8,990 nt of DNA from Candidatus Zixiibacteriota bacterium (GTDB taxonomy: Bacteria > SM23-81), in the NCBI GenBank assembly GCA_030628225.1, contig DAOVRJ010000090.1, forward strand, positions 1-8,990, read 5' to 3'. This document shows, piece by piece, positions 1,086-8,646 of the stretch. A program made the position numbers and the translations under genes. The notes beneath the pieces were generated by a model. That model was not told where the DNA came from. It made no database searches and worked only from the letters and a program-made list of their open reading frames with translations. Within the stretch, counting starts at the first letter, position 1. Each line of letters begins with the position of its first letter.

Positions 1086-1206
1086 AGGATTCAAGGAGTC
1101 AAGGGGTCCAGGATTCGAGGGGAAAGGCAATTGAAAGCCTGGTATCCTTACCGGGGTTGTGGTCGGGGGTCCCTTGAACCCTGGAATCCTTAAATCCTCG
1201 AATCCT
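1086..1206. repeat. Pair of inverted octamer arrays
   Basis: Five consecutive 8-bp units of the form AGGRKTCN run from 1086 to 1125 (AGGATTCA, AGGAGTCA, AGGGGTCC, AGGATTCG, AGGGGAAA). Five more in the opposite orientation run from 1167 to 1206; read on the minus strand they are AGGATTCG, AGGATTTA, AGGATTCC, AGGGTTCA and AGGGACCC. The two 40-bp arrays are separated by 41 bp and could fold into a long imperfect hairpin. They lie in the presumed 5' leader of the DUF4159 gene, ending 36 bp before its start codon. They do not encode anything convincing. Confidence 0.85.
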
Positions 1207-1230
1207 ATCTTTCAAAAGACAGAAGCTAAC

Positions 1231-1235
1231 AGGAG
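1231..1235 (+). promoter_or_regulatory. Ribosome binding site deciding the DUF4159 start
   Basis: AGGAG lies 7 nt before ATG at 1243. The frame is also open upstream to a GTG at 1159, but that extension would translate the octamer repeat array and would put the signal peptide in mid-protein, so 1243 is preferred. Confidence 0.7.
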
Positions 1236-1242
1236 CAGCTAC

Positions 1243-1944
1243 ATGTCCAAGCGAGACCATCGCAGATGGGTTTCCTGTCTCCTCCTGGGCCTCGTCATCC
1301 TTATGGGGGAAGCCTACACCCATACCCTGGCCCAGGGCCTTGGCTGCGGCGATAAGCTGGCCGTGGCCAGGCTGCAGTATGGTGGGGGAGGTGATTGGTA
1401 TAACGACCGGTCCATTATTCCCAACCTGATGTGCGAGGTCAACAGAAGGACCGAGATAGAAGCCCTGGAGGAGGAGATCATCCTGGAGCTGACCGACGCG
1501 GAGCTGTTTCAGCACCCCTTTCTGTTCATGACCGGCCACGGCAACATCCGGCTCAGCGAAGAGGAGATCCAGCGGCTGCGCCTGTATCTCACCCACGGCG
1601 GCTTCCTGTACGCCGATGACGATTACGGCATGGACGAGGCCTTTCGCCGGGAGATCAGAAGGGTTTTTCCGGAGAAAGAGCTGCTGGAGCTGCCCTTCAG
1701 TCACCCCATCTATCACACGCTGTACGATTTCCCCTCCGGCCTGCCCAAGATCCACGAGCACGATGGCCATCCACCTCAGGGTTTGGGCCTGTTCCACGAG
1801 GGCAGGCTGATTCTCTTCTACACCTATGAGACCAACATCAGCGACGGCTGGGCCGATGCAGAGGTGCATCAGGATCCCCCGGAGATCAGGGAGCAGGCCT
1901 TTCGGATGGGGCTAAATATCATCATCTACGCCTTGTTGTACTAA
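1243..1944 (+). CDS. Secreted DUF4159-domain protein
   Basis: The product is 233 residues. Residues 1-31 form a classical Sec signal peptide: a basic start (MSKRDHRR), a hydrophobic core (VSCLLLGLVILMG) and a plausible cleavage site after TLA at residue 31. The mature part matches the DUF4159 family as I know it: an N-terminal ARLQYGGGGDWYND motif, a central FMTGHGNIRLSEEE segment, GGFLYADDDYGMD, then SHPIYH, PKIHEHDG, FHEGRLI and a final segment resembling the family's C-terminal GVNIxxYAL. The fold is expected to resemble a glutamine-amidotransferase-like sandwich, but no catalytic function is established for the family. The location is likely periplasmic. The domain takes up nearly the whole mature protein, and the gene ends 52 bp before the next one, so the two may be cotranscribed. 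The family call is strong; the biochemical function is unknown. Confidence 0.88.
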   Translation: MSKRDHRRWVSCLLLGLVILMGEAYTHTLAQGLGCGDKLAVARLQYGGGGDWYNDRSIIPNLMCEVNRRTEIEALEEEIILELTDAELFQHPFLFMTGHGNIRLSEEEIQRLRLYLTHGGFLYADDDYGMDEAFRREIRRVFPEKELLELPFSHPIYHTLYDFPSGLPKIHEHDGHPPQGLGLFHEGRLILFYTYETNISDGWADAEVHQDPPEIREQAFRMGLNIIIYALLY

Positions 1945-1996: not shown

Positions 1997-3901
1997 ATGG
2001 CCACTTCCAGGACCAAGGGCCAGAGGGTGCCGGCGGTGCCGGATATACTGCGCAAGAGCTTGCGCAGGGAGAGGATCCAGGTTTCACCTAAAAGGCTGGC
2101 TCAGTATCTCCAGGAGCTTCGCGGCGCCCGGCGTGTCTTTCCCCTCGACCAGGAACGAGCGATGTTCGTGGGATTGATGGAACAGTGGCGAAAGACCAAG
2201 GATGCCAAGACCGTGGTATTTATCTCCAGAATGGACAACGAGGAATCTTTCCCGACCACGGTGAGCTTCGGCGTTTTGGGCTCCGACTGGCCTGGTCTGT
2301 CAGAGAGCTGTATCGGAGTGCTTCACCAGAAGGGCTGGAACATCGTATTCGCCAAAGGAATGGTGGTAGAGCATAAAGGCCAGCAGTTAGGCGTGGTGAT
2401 CATGGCCGTGGAGGTGAGGTCCGCCGAAGAGATGAAACGGCTGGCCAAAGAGAGGGAAAGGCTGGCTGAATCTCTGTCCAAAGCCAGCATCGGAAGCCTG
2501 GCCAAGGCCTATCTCATCGCCCGGGAGGGCAGGCGCCTGGAGACATACAGCCGGGTCATCGAGGCAATTGCCAGGCAGTGTTCTGCGGAGGAACGGGAGG
2601 GACTTTTAGGCCCAAAGGGTGAGGCGGTGATGTTCTTTGCCAGCCGGCCCGAGGAGTACGTTTTCGAGAGAAAGACCAAGGATCTGGTCGACCAGATCAT
2701 AACCAATTATCGTTTTCTCAAAAGGGTGAGGGAGACCGGCGGCCGTCCTCAGGTGTGGATTAAGAGCCTGAAGACGGTCCGGGAGCACCTGACCGGGATC
2801 ACGGTGGCCGGGTACGATCGGGAGTTTTCCCTTAACGATTGCCTGGAGGCCATCGGACATGCCGTTCCCGGTTTTAAGCGCAAGTTCAACAAAGAATTCA
2901 CTACAGATGATGGCATTACCATGTATCGTCTGGAGATCTGCAATAGCCAGGCTCAGCCTTTTCCCCGGGAGGAGACAGACCACATTCGCAGGGCCTTGCT
3001 CCAGATGGCCACCAGCAAGAAATTTCAGCGAGCCAAGTGGACCGAAGCCCCTGGTGGCTTCGAGCACTATGTTCGAGCCATCATTCCCTTTCTGCTGAAG
3101 GAGTTCAGGATCTCCCAGATACCACAGGTGTACATGAGCGTGGCCACGTCCACCGATTTCTTTCTGGAGTTTAAGATTATCATCATTCTGTCCGGAGATA
3201 GGACCACCCAGGAAAAGAAGATCTTCAGATGCGTGGAGGCCCTGGAACTAGCTTCCGGGCTAACTGTTCTGTCTACGAAGCCGCCCAGGATCATGGGCAC
3301 GGAGGGGATCAATATCATCGATTTGCGGGCCGACCTGGACCGTTTCTCCGACCGGCAGGGGGTATATGAGACCATCGAGGAGCAGTTGGGCCGGGTGATC
3401 GGTCAGTTCAGGGATTTCGACGAGGGCATGCGCATCATGGAGACCAAAAAGCTCAGCCAGGTGCGGGAGCATTTCAGGAGAACCCGGGAAGTCCTGGTTC
3501 GGGAGTTTTACTACCAGCTGGAGGATTTTTATCGGGTCAGCGCTTCCGTGGAGGAGCTGGCCCAGCAGATCCGCATGGGCATCCGCACCATCAGGCGCCT
3601 GGCCAGATCGGATACACCCTTCGTCATCGAGGGCAAGAACGCGCAGATGGGCAGGGGGGCTGGCATGAGCACAGCCACTCTGGTCTGTATTGCCTTCGAT
3701 CCCCAAATCCCGGGCTTTACCGGATGTTTGAGCACCTTGAGCTCCTATGAAACGACCATGAGCAGAGTGGAGCGGGAGGAAGCCACGGTGCTGCTCCTTA
3801 AGCTGGCCAAGGAAGGGGCTGCCCTTGATGCCGCCGGCTTAAGGCAGCTTCTTCGAGAACTGCGTAAGTCTCTCACAGTCTGCATCATGGGGATAGACTG
3901 A
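1997..3901 (+). CDS. Large ACT-like domain protein of unknown function
   Basis: A 634-residue soluble protein with no signal peptide and no membrane segment. Residues about 88-140 look like an ACT domain: a beta-strand (TTVSFGVLGSDWPGLSES), a helix (CIGVLHQKGWNIVFAKG), then strands ending GVVIMAVEV. Residues about 141-165 are a charged helix. Residues about 265-315 repeat the logic of an ACT fold (GITVAGYDREFSLNDCLEAI, then KFNKEFTTDDGITMYRLEI), and 375-420 may be a third strand-rich unit. Residues about 450-540 are mostly helical and Arg/Glu-rich. A Gly-rich segment, QMGRGAGMSTAT, lies at 550-561. I recognise no catalytic domain and cannot name the family. ACT units bind small ligands such as amino acids and regulate attached or partner proteins; the tandem layout recalls the regulatory N-terminus of large NAD-glutamate dehydrogenases, but the dehydrogenase domain is absent. 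A cytoplasmic ligand sensor is an inference. It lies 52 bp after the DUF4159 gene. Confidence 0.8.
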   Translation: MATSRTKGQRVPAVPDILRKSLRRERIQVSPKRLAQYLQELRGARRVFPLDQERAMFVGLMEQWRKTKDAKTVVFISRMDNEESFPTTVSFGVLGSDWPGLSESCIGVLHQKGWNIVFAKGMVVEHKGQQLGVVIMAVEVRSAEEMKRLAKERERLAESLSKASIGSLAKAYLIAREGRRLETYSRVIEAIARQCSAEEREGLLGPKGEAVMFFASRPEEYVFERKTKDLVDQIITNYRFLKRVRETGGRPQVWIKSLKTVREHLTGITVAGYDREFSLNDCLEAIGHAVPGFKRKFNKEFTTDDGITMYRLEICNSQAQPFPREETDHIRRALLQMATSKKFQRAKWTEAPGGFEHYVRAIIPFLLKEFRISQIPQVYMSVATSTDFFLEFKIIIILSGDRTTQEKKIFRCVEALELASGLTVLSTKPPRIMGTEGINIIDLRADLDRFSDRQGVYETIEEQLGRVIGQFRDFDEGMRIMETKKLSQVREHFRRTREVLVREFYYQLEDFYRVSASVEELAQQIRMGIRTIRRLARSDTPFVIEGKNAQMGRGAGMSTATLVCIAFDPQIPGFTGCLSTLSSYETTMSRVEREEATVLLLKLAKEGAALDAAGLRQLLRELRKSLTVCIMGID

Positions 3902-4051
3902 ATTCCTCTGTATTGTTGCCAATCTTACCCGGCAGGTTTTTTAGAGCCAAACGCGTTGAATGCTGAGCCGTTCTTTGCTATCCCTCCAGGCCGGGAAAAC
4001 GTCCCATCTATTCTGCCGATAAAATGCTTAGCCCTGAGGATGTGGTGATCC
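3902..4051 (+). other. 150-bp intergenic gap
   Basis: There is a weak terminator-like element: TTGCC (3916-3920) can pair with GGCAG (3931-3935) around a 10-nt loop, followed by GTTTTTT (3936-3942). A weak promoter-like pair, TTGAAT at 3956-3961 and TATCCC at 3979-3984, has 17-bp spacing. Neither is convincing alone, but together they fit a transcript boundary between the ACT-like gene and the tld run. Confidence 0.35.
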
Positions 4052-4915
4052 TTGGACTCCGTGCAACATAGAAAAGAAGCCCTCAGAGCTTATGGCTATG
4101 TGGGCCTGGCCGTCATTCTGCTGGCCGAGATACTGATGTTCCTGCGGGTGGAGCCCGTCTATACCTTCTTCACGCCCATCGTCTGGTCGGGCTACATCCT
4201 GTTTGTTGACAGCATCATCTGCAAGATCCAGGGGCGCTCCCTGATCAGCCATCGCCGGGGGGAACTTCTGTTCATGCTCTTTTTCTCTCTGGCTTTCTGG
4301 CTGATCTTCGAGCTCTATAATCTGCATATTAAAAATTGGCACTATGTTGGGTTTCCCCGGCAGTTGTGGGCCACGTGCCTGGGTTGTGGCTGGGCTTTCG
4401 CCACCATCCTGCCGGCCATTCTGCTCACCGCCAGGTTACTGGAGCTGGTGGGTTTTCCCAAAGTGACCGTGCCCAGGGTCAGGATAGGTGGAGGACTTCG
4501 CTGGACGCTCATCGTCCTGGGCGCTCTTTGCCTGACGGTTCCGCTACTGCTGCCCTTCTCCATGGCCAGGCACCTGATCGCTCCCATATGGCTGGGTTTC
4601 ATCTTCCTGTTTGATCCCATCAATCACATGCGGGGTAGATGGTCCCTTCTGGGAGATCTTGGGCGCGGGGATCTGTCCCGGATATTAGTGCTTTTCGCCT
4701 CCGGTCTCATCTGCGGTCTTCTGTGGGAGTTCTGGAACTACTGGGCAAAGGCCAGGTGGATCTATGCCGTTCCCTTTGCCTTCGGTCCCAGGATCTTCGA
4801 GATGCCCCTGGGGGGATATCTGGGCTTTTTACCCTTTGCCATTGAATGTTATGTGATGTGTGTCTTTGTGATGACCCTTCGCCAACGGAGCTGGTTTCCG
4901 GGACGAGAGGTTTGA
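4052..4915 (+). CDS. Duplicated polytopic membrane protein of unknown function
   Basis: A 287-residue hydrophobic protein with roughly seven or eight membrane segments. It is an internal duplication: residues about 37-130 align with about 174-275. Shared landmarks are TPIVWSGYILFVD (41-53) with APIWLGFIFLFD (177-188), RGEL (69-72) with RGDL (205-208), FELYN (86-90) with WEFWNY (225-230), WHYVGFP (96-102) with WIYAVPF (236-242), and a Gly-rich helix after each. An Asp (53, 188) and a Glu (87, 226) within or beside membrane helices are kept in both halves, suggesting a functional site or a symmetric pore. I cannot assign a family. The frame opens after a TGA at 4046-4048, so TTG at 4052, 11 nt after GAGGA (4036-4040), is the earliest start; GTG at 4061 is an alternative. 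The stop overlaps a possible tldD start (TGATG), implying one operon. Confidence 0.8.
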   Translation: MDSVQHRKEALRAYGYVGLAVILLAEILMFLRVEPVYTFFTPIVWSGYILFVDSIICKIQGRSLISHRRGELLFMLFFSLAFWLIFELYNLHIKNWHYVGFPRQLWATCLGCGWAFATILPAILLTARLLELVGFPKVTVPRVRIGGGLRWTLIVLGALCLTVPLLLPFSMARHLIAPIWLGFIFLFDPINHMRGRWSLLGDLGRGDLSRILVLFASGLICGLLWEFWNYWAKARWIYAVPFAFGPRIFEMPLGGYLGFLPFAIECYVMCVFVMTLRQRSWFPGREV

Positions 4916-4927
4916 TGACTGCTGAGA

Positions 4928-4933
4928 GGGAGG
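4928..4933 (+). promoter_or_regulatory. Ribosome binding site deciding the tldD start
   Basis: GGGAGG lies 5 nt before ATG at 4939. A second in-frame ATG at 4915, overlapping the upstream stop, has GAGAGG (4905-4910) 4 nt before it. The 4939 start puts the twin arginines at the very N-terminus, as is usual for Tat signals, so it is preferred. Confidence 0.65.
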
Positions 4934-4938
4934 TTTCT

Positions 4939-6450
4939 ATGAGAAGAAGAGAATTCCTCAAAAAAAGCGCTCGCGGCACCGGTGTCATCATGGTCTCGCC
5001 TCTTTTGCTGAGTGCTCTGGGCACCGGAGAAGGTCTTTGCCTGGAGACCGGGGCCTCGCCTCTGTTGGATTTGGGCAGGGAAGACCTGGACAAATTGCTG
5101 GGCATAGCACTGGCCAGGGGGGGCGACTTCGCCGATATCTATGTGGAACGGCGCCTGAGACGTCACATCGTCATGGAGGAGAACCGCATCGCCTCCATCC
5201 ATCTGGGGATAGATCGGGGCGTGGGGGTGCGGGTGATCGCCGGCGACGCCACCGGGTATGCCTACTCGGAAGATCTTTCCCTCAAGAAGCTGCAGGAGGC
5301 GGCTGGCACAGCCTCTGCGGTGGCCCGCTCCGGTGGTAAAACCACCCCGGTGTCTGTTTCCCGGGGCACGGTTTCCGATCTCATCCCGGCCAGGATTCCG
5401 CTGGAGAGCGTAGCCGAGGACGAAAGGCTACAGGTGATCGGCCGGGCCAACGACGCGGCCAGATCTTATGATGGCCGGATCAGACAGGTCACCGTCACCT
5501 ACCTTGAGGAGGTCAAGGAGATCGCCATGGCTAACTCCGAGGGGGTCTGGGTGGAGGACAGGCAGCCGCTGATCTACTTCATCGTCAACGCCCTGGCTAC
5601 CGGGGGCGGCGCAAGACATCGCGGCCGGCGGAGGATCAGCGCTCACTCGGGATTCGAGCTCTTCGACGGGGACAGGCCGGAGGAGGTGGGTAAAGGAGCC
5701 GCCCGGGAGGCGGTGACCATGCTGGCAGCCATCGAGGCTCCCGCCGGTCAGATGCCGGTGATCACCTCCAGCGGATGGGGGGGCGTGCTGTTCCACGAGG
5801 CCGTGGGCCACGGGCTGGAGGCCGATGGCATTCAGCGGGGGACCTCTTTCTACGTCGGCAAGGTGGGCCAAAAGGTGGGCTCTGAATTGGTCACCCTGGT
5901 GGATGACGCCACCGTGCCCGGTCTCCGCGGATCCTTCAATGTGGACGATGAGGGAACTGTTTCCCAGCGCAAGGTGCTCATCGAGAAGGGCATCCTCCGC
6001 GGCTACATGTACGACAAGCTGACCGCCAGGCAGTTAGGGGCTTCATCCACGGGCAGCGGCCGCCGGCAGTCCTTCAAGCACTATCCCCTGGTGCGCATGA
6101 CCAACACCTTCGTGCTGGCCGGGCAGGCCAAACCGGAGGAGGTCTTTGCTGCCACCAAGAAGGGCTTATATGCGGCGGAATTCGTCGGGGGGGTGGTGGA
6201 CACCACTTCAGGGAGCTTCACCTTCACTGTCCGGGAGGCCTACCTCATCGAGAATGGCCGGATGACCAGTCCGGTGAAGGGGGTCACGCTCATCGGCAGC
6301 GGCCCCGAGGTGCTGCGGACCATCGACATGGTGGCCGACGACCTGGACTATGCCCCCGGCACATGCGGCAAGGGCCAGTGGGTGCCCGTCACCTGTGGGG
6401 AGCCCACCCTGCGCATAGGCAAGATCACCGTGGGAGGGACTAAGACCTGA
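4939..6450 (+). CDS. tldD: TldD family metalloprotease with Tat signal
   Basis: A 503-residue protein of the TldD/PmbA family. The N-terminus MRRREFLKKSARG followed by a hydrophobic stretch (GVIMVSPLLLSALG) is a twin-arginine signal peptide, predicting folded export through the Tat pathway. The metal site motif HExxxH is intact as HEAVGH, residues 286-291 (His286, Glu287, His291). The family's C-terminal metal-ligand Cys is Cys476 in TCGKGQ, and the end (LRIGKITVGGT) is typical. In characterised systems TldD supplies the zinc site of a TldD-TldE heteromer that degrades unfolded peptides and processes microcin B17 leader or CcdA. The protein is slightly longer than E. coli TldD because of the signal. 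Cys34 near the signal end lacks a proper lipobox (Leu at -1), so lipidation is unlikely. It lies between the duplicated membrane protein and tldE, all in one direction. Family call very secure; Tat export strongly suggested; substrate unknown. Confidence 0.95.
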   Translation: MRRREFLKKSARGTGVIMVSPLLLSALGTGEGLCLETGASPLLDLGREDLDKLLGIALARGGDFADIYVERRLRRHIVMEENRIASIHLGIDRGVGVRVIAGDATGYAYSEDLSLKKLQEAAGTASAVARSGGKTTPVSVSRGTVSDLIPARIPLESVAEDERLQVIGRANDAARSYDGRIRQVTVTYLEEVKEIAMANSEGVWVEDRQPLIYFIVNALATGGGARHRGRRRISAHSGFELFDGDRPEEVGKGAAREAVTMLAAIEAPAGQMPVITSSGWGGVLFHEAVGHGLEADGIQRGTSFYVGKVGQKVGSELVTLVDDATVPGLRGSFNVDDEGTVSQRKVLIEKGILRGYMYDKLTARQLGASSTGSGRRQSFKHYPLVRMTNTFVLAGQAKPEEVFAATKKGLYAAEFVGGVVDTTSGSFTFTVREAYLIENGRMTSPVKGVTLIGSGPEVLRTIDMVADDLDYAPGTCGKGQWVPVTCGEPTLRIGKITVGGTKT

Positions 6451-6516
6451 GATACAGTTGAGGAGACAGTAACAGTGGCACTTCCCGACAAGAAATGAAC
6501 AGGTTGGATTCTTCGC

Positions 6517-6521
6517 GGAGG
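6517..6521 (+). promoter_or_regulatory. Ribosome binding site deciding the tldE TTG start
   Basis: GGAGG, within the extended match GGAGGTGAG, lies 6 nt before TTG at 6528. An in-frame TGA at 6522-6524 closes the frame just upstream, so no longer N-terminus, and hence no signal peptide, can be hidden there. Confidence 0.8.
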
Positions 6522-6527
6522 TGAGTT

Positions 6528-7865
6528 TTGAAGCCCAAAAAAATGGCTGCTAGGATGCTGGACAGGCTGGTCGGCCACGGAGCCACTGAGGCCGAGGTCT
6601 TTCTGGGCCAGGGCAGCAGGTTGAGAATTGAGGTGCGCCAGCAGAAGCTGGAATACCTGAAGCAGGAGAGCTTTCAGGGGATGGGACTGCGGGTTTACGC
6701 TGGCCAGCGCATGGCCTTTGTGGATATTGCCGACTTCTCCGAAGAGACCCTTGAGCTGATGGCCAAAAAAGCGGTGGAGCTGGCCAGAATGGCCGGTTCG
6801 GACCCGGCCCACGGTCTGCCGGAAAAAGAAGGAAAGGTGACCGGTCAGGAGGTGGTGGACCAGAACATCTCTTCAATCTCGCTGGAGGAGAAGCTGGCCA
6901 GGTTGATGAAAACGGAGCGGCTGGCCATGGAGCACGACCCGATCATCACCCTGTCTAACGGGGCCTCTTATTCCGATGTGTTTCGCGAGGTGACCATCGC
7001 CAACACTCATGGCCTGTCCCACAGCTACAAGGAGACCAGATTTTCCATAAGCGTCTCGGTGGTGGCCACCAAAAACGGTCACAAGAAAGACGGCTGGGAC
7101 AATTGTAGCCGGCGCAGCTACCGGAGTCTACGCAAGGCCCATCAGATGGCCCGCAGAGCCGGTGAGATGGGTGTATCCCTGGTGGGAGGGGAGCCGGTGC
7201 CCAGCGGTGAGGTTCCCGTTGTCTTCGATGCCCGGGCGGGAAGAGGGTTGATCGGCGGGCTGGTGCGAGCCGTCAATGGCAAGGAGGTACACCTGGGCAA
7301 TTCCTTTTTGACCGGCAAGCTGGGCCATCCTATTGCCTCAGAGCTGGTCACCATCGTGGATGATGGCACTCTGGGCCAGGGCGTGGGTTCCGCCCCCGTG
7401 GATGGCGAGGGAGTGGCCACGCGGCGCAAGGTGGTGGTGGAGAAGGGTGTGCTGAAGGCATTTCTGTACGACACCTACGGTGCCCGCAAGGCCGGTGCTG
7501 TTTCCACGGGAAACGGTATGCGCGGATCTTACGGCAGCCTTCCCGGCATTGGAGCCACCAATTTTTACATGGTCGAGGGCGACAGGTCAGCGAAAAAGCT
7601 GATTAAGGACTTAGGGCAAGGATTATATGTTCAAGAAACGATCGGTTTTGGGGTGAACACAACTGCAGGCAGCTATTCGGCAGGGGTCTTCGGCAGCTGG
7701 ATCGAAGATGGAAAACTCACCAAGCCGGTGGCCCAGGTGACCATCGCCGGAGATCTGCTGGACATATTGACCTCCATCGATGCCGTGGGCGATGACCTGG
7801 AGTTCGACGGCCGCATAGCCTGCCCCAGCTTTCGGGTGGCCAAGATGACCGTGGCGGGAACGTGA
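6528..7865 (+). CDS. tldE: TldE/PmbA family protein, partner of TldD
   Basis: A 445-residue protein, close to the usual length of TldE (PmbA). The start is TTG, supported by a near-perfect Shine-Dalgarno site and an in-frame stop just upstream. The N-terminus (MKPKKMAARMLDRL) is cytoplasmic in character, with no Sec or Tat signal. At the place where TldD has HEAVGHGL this protein has DARAGRGL (residues 234-241), so the HExxxH metal site is missing, as expected for TldE. Shared family segments include SELVTIVDDGTL, VDGEGVATRRKVVVEKGVL, STGNGMRGSYGS, and the C-terminal FRVAKMTVAGT. TldE pairs with TldD in an inactive-subunit/active-subunit complex. It follows tldD by 77 bp in the same direction and is presumably cotranscribed. 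How it meets an exported TldD is the open question. Family call very secure. Confidence 0.94.
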   Translation: MKPKKMAARMLDRLVGHGATEAEVFLGQGSRLRIEVRQQKLEYLKQESFQGMGLRVYAGQRMAFVDIADFSEETLELMAKKAVELARMAGSDPAHGLPEKEGKVTGQEVVDQNISSISLEEKLARLMKTERLAMEHDPIITLSNGASYSDVFREVTIANTHGLSHSYKETRFSISVSVVATKNGHKKDGWDNCSRRSYRSLRKAHQMARRAGEMGVSLVGGEPVPSGEVPVVFDARAGRGLIGGLVRAVNGKEVHLGNSFLTGKLGHPIASELVTIVDDGTLGQGVGSAPVDGEGVATRRKVVVEKGVLKAFLYDTYGARKAGAVSTGNGMRGSYGSLPGIGATNFYMVEGDRSAKKLIKDLGQGLYVQETIGFGVNTTAGSYSAGVFGSWIEDGKLTKPVAQVTIAGDLLDILTSIDAVGDDLEFDGRIACPSFRVAKMTVAGT

Positions 7866-8100: not shown

Positions 8101-8115
8101 ACCGATTTGGGGATT

Positions 8116-8162
8116 GTTAAGGGGCAAGATCCCCTTAACACAATTCCGCTAAAGCGGGATTG
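8116..8162 (+). promoter_or_regulatory. Two tandem hairpins in the tnpA leader
   Basis: GTTAAGGGG (8116-8124) pairs perfectly with CCCCTTAAC (8131-8139). Immediately after, CAATTCCGC (8141-8149) pairs with GCGGGATTG (8154-8162), 9 bp with one wobble and a 4-nt loop. In IS200 of Salmonella, leader hairpins limit read-through from outside and repress tnpA; these may do the same. Confidence 0.7.
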
Positions 8163-8171
8163 CGATTCTGT

Positions 8172-8206
8172 CCTCCCGTGGTTATCTTTAGATAACCGAT
8201 GGGAGG
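8172..8206 (+). promoter_or_regulatory. Hairpin sequestering the tnpA ribosome binding site
   Basis: GGTTATC (8180-8186) pairs with GATAACC (8191-8197) around TTTA, and CCTCCC (8172-8177) pairs with the Shine-Dalgarno sequence GGGAGG (8201-8206). The folded RNA therefore hides the ribosome binding site that lies 8 nt before GTG at 8215. This matches the known translational silencing strategy of IS200 elements. Confidence 0.8.
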
Positions 8207-8214
8207 GCGGAAAC

Positions 8215-8646
8215 GTGTCTATTAGAAAAGCAGCCCATGTTACCTATAATATTCAGTACCACTTTGTTTGGATTCCCAAGTATCGGAAGATGGTCCTCGA
8301 TGATGAGATAGCTCAGGAGTTGGAGGGGTTGATTTATGGGATTGCCGAGCGATATGGGTTTAGCATTGAGGATTTGGCGATTGCCCCCGATCACGTCCAT
8401 CTGTTTTTGTCGGCTCCGCCGCGGTATTCGCCCAGCAGGATTATGGGCAAGATGAAAGGTATTACAGCGGACAAGTTGTTTCAGCGTTTTCCCCGTATTA
8501 AGAAGATGCTCTGGGGAGGTCATCTGTGGTCGAGAGGTTACTATGTTGGAACCTCAGGCGACAAAGTGACCAATGATTTGATAAAGAAGTACATTCAGTA
8601 TCAGCGGAAACAGGACGATCAGCTCGATCAAGGCAAATTGTTTTAA
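8215..8646 (+). CDS. tnpA: IS200-type Y1 HUH transposase TnpA
   Basis: A 143-residue transposase of the IS200/IS605 family, full length for the group. Residues 8-25 hold the opening strand and the family signature YHFVWIPKYRK. The HUH metal motif is His60-Val-His62 in DHVHLF. The catalytic tyrosine is most likely Tyr126 in KKYIQYQ, with Gln130 one helical turn on, matching the YIxxQ arrangement of the family. GTG at 8215 is chosen because GGGAGG lies just upstream and the protein then begins where family members begin; the frame is open farther upstream to 8107 but that part is leader hairpins. TnpA excises and inserts the element as single-stranded DNA, cutting beside the end hairpins. All key residues are present, so it appears functional. 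Translation is probably kept low by the leader hairpin covering the ribosome binding site. Confidence 0.95.
   Translation: MSIRKAAHVTYNIQYHFVWIPKYRKMVLDDEIAQELEGLIYGIAERYGFSIEDLAIAPDHVHLFLSAPPRYSPSRIMGKMKGITADKLFQRFPRIKKMLWGGHLWSRGYYVGTSGDKVTNDLIKKYIQYQRKQDDQLDQGKLF

Follow-up and report, generated by a model that had tools for sequence, protein, structure and literature searches.

TldD/TldE, a two-subunit bacterial protease known from work inside the cell, has been studied as a processor of microcins and of CcdA. In the 8,990-nucleotide stretch analysed here (the window; contig DAOVRJ010000090.1 of the Candidatus Zixiibacteriota assembly GCA_030628225.1), a tldD gene whose product begins with a twin-arginine (Tat) signal is followed by a tldE gene whose product has none. 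A question raised by this arrangement is where the pair works and how the untagged subunit would get there. The first-pass annotation had offered three readings: TldE rides through the Tat channel bound to TldD, the pair is split between compartments, or the signal serves as a membrane anchor. We favour the first. Judging from sequence, and with a probability of roughly 75%, this TldD/TldE metalloprotease would work outside the cytoplasm after assembly in the cytoplasm and joint Tat export, with TldE as the hitchhiker.

The tldD/tldE pair of the window

Both window subunits contain the three PmbA/TldD domains, and the TldE sequence matches PmbA chains. The HExxxH motif is present on TldD (HEAVGH, residues 286-291), which also has Cys476 and Lys478, and is absent from the TldE frames. 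Across 47 TldDs, H286, E287, H291, E294, D296, C476 and K478 were invariant. By spacing, window H286, H291, C476, K478, E294 and D296 match the E. coli TldD residues of the metal site and the clamp, namely His262, His267, Cys454 and Lys456, with Glu270 and Asp272 (PMC5810440). Foldseek comparisons of the structure models gave TM scores of 0.88/0.92 for TldD against E. coli TldD (5nj5) and 0.90-0.93 for TldE against the PmbA chains of 5nj5/5njb and 3qtd. The window pair thus shares with E. coli TldD/TldE (PmbA; MEROPS M103, PDB 5NJ5) both folds (TM about 0.9 each) and a metal site of HExxxH plus Cys that only TldD carries, with TldE as the partner. By domains and motif, the two genes are a TldD/TldE (M103) metalloprotease pair, with predicted peptidase activity.

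The difference from E. coli lies at the N-terminus of TldD. The match to E. coli TldD starts at residue 45, past the signal, and the first Pfam domain begins at residue 65; with its Tat signal, the window pair is expected to be extracytoplasmic. TldD starts at an ATG with AGGGAGG in front (MRRREFLKKSARGTGVIMVSPLLLSALGTGEG), and its N-terminus (MRRREFLKKSARGTGVIMVSPLLLSAL) is a twin-arginine signal, consisting of an RRxFLK-type motif and, after it, an uncharged stretch of moderate hydrophobicity. In the TldD model, residues 1-38 are unstructured (pLDDT <50), whereas the TldE model is folded from residue 3. Since the TTG start of tldE lies one codon past an in-frame TGA and is served by a GGAGG site (Table 1), there is no room for a signal on TldE.

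Both readings of the first-pass annotation, a clear twin-arginine signal on TldD and a signal-less TldE starting at a TTG after an in-frame stop, held up on comparison with relatives. The orthologues in the sister genome (Zixibacteria SM23_81, L044) are 80% (TldD) and 75% (TldE) identical, and both starts are kept: the tldD ATG directly follows an in-frame TAG, and the tldE start region reads GGAGGTGAGCT-TTG with a TGA in frame, as in the window. Non-conservation of the N-terminal segment had been named as grounds for rejection; the segment instead proved conserved: nine TldDs with identities of 41-80% all have R3, R4 and F6, and the remaining signal residues are variable. Between the window and the sister genome, the RR, F and L codons of the signal differ silently only, and pN/pS is 0.38 for signal codons 1-35 and 0.19 for the mature part.

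Profile searches responded weakly to this N-terminus. The Pfam Tat models gave no match to the window TldD signal, and among NCBIfam models the only match was a weak one of residues 2-30 to PRK09898 (ferredoxin-like protein; E 0.036). The TldD of a paralogous pair in the same genome (C18) matched TIGR01409 below the cut-off (E 0.055). At this length of sequence the curated Tat HMMs are too weak to be decisive.

Upstream, the order of the DUF4159, 634-aa and 287-aa genes before tldD is the same in the sister genome. The 287-aa membrane protein gene ends 23 bases upstream of tldD and keeps this position in no genome but the sister genome; it is probably in an operon with tldD but outside the two-gene unit. 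A search of 20 neighbourhoods for a substrate or RiPP cluster turned up no widely common gene apart from tldD and tldE, so the unit is the two-gene tldD/tldE pair.

Table 1 Features of the window (positions in the 8,990-nucleotide stretch)
Feature	Position	Strand	Domains or basis
DUF4159 protein, Sec-like N-terminus	1159-1944	+	
634-aa protein	1997-3901	+	no Pfam match
Multi-pass membrane protein, 287 aa	4052-4915	+	no Pfam match
tldD, catalytic subunit, 503 aa	4939-6450	+	PF01523/PF19290/PF19289
TldD Tat signal peptide and linker, residues 1-40, MRRREFLKKSARGTGVIMVSPLLLSALGTGEGLCLETGAS	4939-5058	+	RRxFLK motif, uncharged hydrophobic stretch
tldE GGAGG ribosome site (from 6518) and TTG start (6528), in-frame TGA 6522-6524	6518-6530	+	sequence reading
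tldE (pmbA), non-catalytic subunit, 445 aa, without signal	6528-7865	+	PF01523/PF19290/PF19289
IS200/Y1-type transposase, just downstream of tldE	8107-8646	+	PF01797

One-sided signals in the host genome and in other bacteria

The asymmetry extends beyond what the first-pass annotation had described, both to another pair of this genome and to many other bacteria. The host genome holds four TldD/TldE pairs, on C221 (the window), C18, C44 and C255. The C18 pair shows the same one-sidedness, its TldD beginning IPRREFLKKGAQGGVILVASPMILRGVLGSVAEA and its TldE MAYEDLAQ. No signal was seen in the C44 and C255 pairs, the start of the C255 TldD lying outside the part read. The C44 pair is in reversed order, with a TldE-type gene before tldD and a signal on neither. 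As to the Tat machinery, whose absence from the genome the first-pass annotation would have counted against export, tatC is present (E 1.7e-68); tatA/B were not found in the host's 92%-complete, 306-contig assembly, though they were found in the sister genome (E 3.8e-21; tatB not told apart from tatA), and tatA is present in four further genomes tested.

A survey of TldD/TldE pairs, as the first-pass annotation had proposed, covered 80 named loci, a 386-genome sample, one small phylum and plasmid records, the phylum-centred surveys comprising 1-7 genomes each. Candidates were called by a twin-arginine-plus-hydrophobic rule, which 0.9% of shuffled N-termini match. The sample was collected using Tat-bearing queries and does not amount to a census; within it, 23 distinct HExxxH TldDs pass the rule, from candidate phyla, Aminicenantes, Myxococcota and Parabacteroides distasonis. 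A neighbouring TldE without a signal stands beside all 23 (L155 and L180 included; the adjoining TldE frame of L180 is split), and none of the 118 screened TldEs passes. One further match (L071) was dropped as false, the rule having extended into a domain helix. Most relatives have no signal, for example those of Acidobacteriota and Myxococcaceae. Among the plasmid records examined, a Tat case was found in P. distasonis alone (1/3).

On the TldD tree, which was built quickly and has some long branches, the Tat label needs five changes, at least four of which are forced by well supported branches; the signal has thus appeared or disappeared repeatedly, in every case on TldD. Distances in the TldD and TldE trees are correlated (Spearman 0.85, reached in 0 of 500 permutations), and the two subunits are co-inherited.

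Two members combine the Tat motif with a lipobox, namely the P. distasonis TldD (RRDFIKTGGMVMLGTLAAPSLLGSC; N-terminus MNINRRDFIKTGGMVMLGTLAAPSLLGSC) and the G094 TldD (RRDFLKGAAAAGSLLCMSAVLPGC). By sequence these are Tat lipoproteins, which argues for export. In other members AxA-type c-regions are good (AEA in C18, AQA in L155, AEA in L116); the window TldD has no strong signal-peptidase site, the best guess being ALG/T. Separately, locus L166 (G222, 3990-5600) encodes a TldD-like protein with a Tat-lipobox signal in which LQETIGQ stands in place of the lost HExxxH, and there is no TldD/TldE neighbour within the 9.6 kb covered. In P. distasonis (L196 8630-9871, NZ_OY725834.1), a radical-SAM/SPASM gene that is annotated as an anaerobic sulfatase maturase shares an overlap with the beginning of the Tat-lipobox tldD.

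A probable joint route out of the cytoplasm and its alternatives

The presence of the same one-sided tag in many unrelated bacteria suggests that the tagged TldD probably carries TldE out. We know of no way for TldE to leave the cytoplasm without TldD. E. coli has a stable heterodimer but an unstable TldD homodimer, and activity there needs both subunits (PMC5810440). Tat is able to transport hitchhiker complexes of up to 135 kDa (PMC4273604), and the signal it uses can belong to the catalytic subunit, an arrangement seen in formate dehydrogenase (PMC10924467). On these grounds, cytoplasmic assembly followed by joint export is the simplest account. TldD and TldE would fold and pair in the cytoplasm into a closed hollow shell as in E. 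coli, and the folded heterodimer would then pass the Tat translocase by means of the TldD signal, the signal-less TldE being carried along solely through its binding to TldD. Once exported, the pair would have its metal site (His286, His291 and Cys476) in TldD alone, with TldE closing the chamber, and may nibble unfolded peptides from their N-termini.

Other explanations have to be weighed against this account. TldD may leave alone through Tat and act outside as a homodimer, while TldE stays in the cytoplasm in another role. An active Sulfolobus TldD homodimer has been reported, as cited in PMC5810440, so TldD could in principle exit alone, and the exported-looking L166 protein, which lacks HExxxH, has no TldE homologue in the 9.6 kb around it; however, TldE adjoins every HExxxH Tat-TldD, the TldE trees track the TldD trees, and the instability of E. 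coli TldD homodimers, together with the need for both subunits, also makes solitary export improbable. It is quite improbable, too, that a second internal start yields a signal-less TldD and hence complexes in both compartments: some members have possible start codons between the signal and domain 1, but the genome already has two pairs in which no signal was seen (C44 and C255). The weak response of the curated HMMs and the absence of tatA from the assembly would fit an N-terminal stretch that is chance or relic sequence of no use in export. The invariance of RR and F over the whole identity range, the fact that the RR, F and L codons vary by silent substitutions alone, the pN/pS of 0.38, the lipobox relatives and the low shuffle rate all speak against such a relic, which we regard as very improbable.

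Whether the exported pair is released is a separate matter. The TldD N-terminus could stay uncleaved and, as a Tat anchor, hold the heterodimer on the outer side of the cytoplasmic membrane, a tentative suggestion that we hold to be possible but on balance unlikely. It fits the window TldD, where no AxA site is convincing, and the lipobox forms of P. distasonis and G094 would likewise be membrane-tethered; the good AxA-type c-regions of C18, L155 and L116 point the other way. Because TldE would still hitchhike, anchoring is a variant of joint export and does not exclude it. Joint export is the reading that we favour among the three offered by the first-pass annotation, given the asymmetry of all 23 pairs, the repeated label changes, the co-inheritance of the subunits and the stability of the E. 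coli heterodimer.

Relation to known complexes and significance

HybO/HybC hydrogenase, formate dehydrogenase and PaoABC likewise consist of one subunit with a Tat signal and a signal-less partner, and form stable complexes with a mass similar to or above that of TldD/TldE. These are cofactor-containing redox enzymes, some with shown interdependence in export, whereas TldD/TldE is a metalloprotease whose export we infer. Among solved structures, the TldE-type protein BT3649 of Bacteroides thetaiotaomicron (PDB 1VPB; E 1.9e-202) comes nearest to the P. distasonis TldE; it was solved without a partner and described as a putative DNA gyrase modulator. We found no paper naming the BT3649 gene and its neighbours. 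The structural paper on TldD/TldE names neither periplasm nor cytoplasm (PMC5810440). Among the openly accessible full texts searched, none describes TldD as a Tat substrate. TldD/PmbA and twin-arginine/Tat overlapped in a single full text, a hot-spring community paper (PMC11508158) where each word occurs once or twice. On this open-access basis, the novelty of a Tat-exported TldD is provisional.

Taken across the survey, the data make it fairly likely that the TldD/TldE family includes widespread, unrecognised extracytoplasmic peptidases, in which a Tat (sometimes lipoprotein) signal has been put repeatedly on the catalytic subunit alone and TldE always hitchhikes. If true, this would extend Tat co-translocation to a protease, and to a cargo as simple as two proteins and one metal. 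P. distasonis is a named species that offers a test ground for exported TldD/TldE. If it is true in many phyla, part of the function of the TldD/TldE family would move to the cell envelope.
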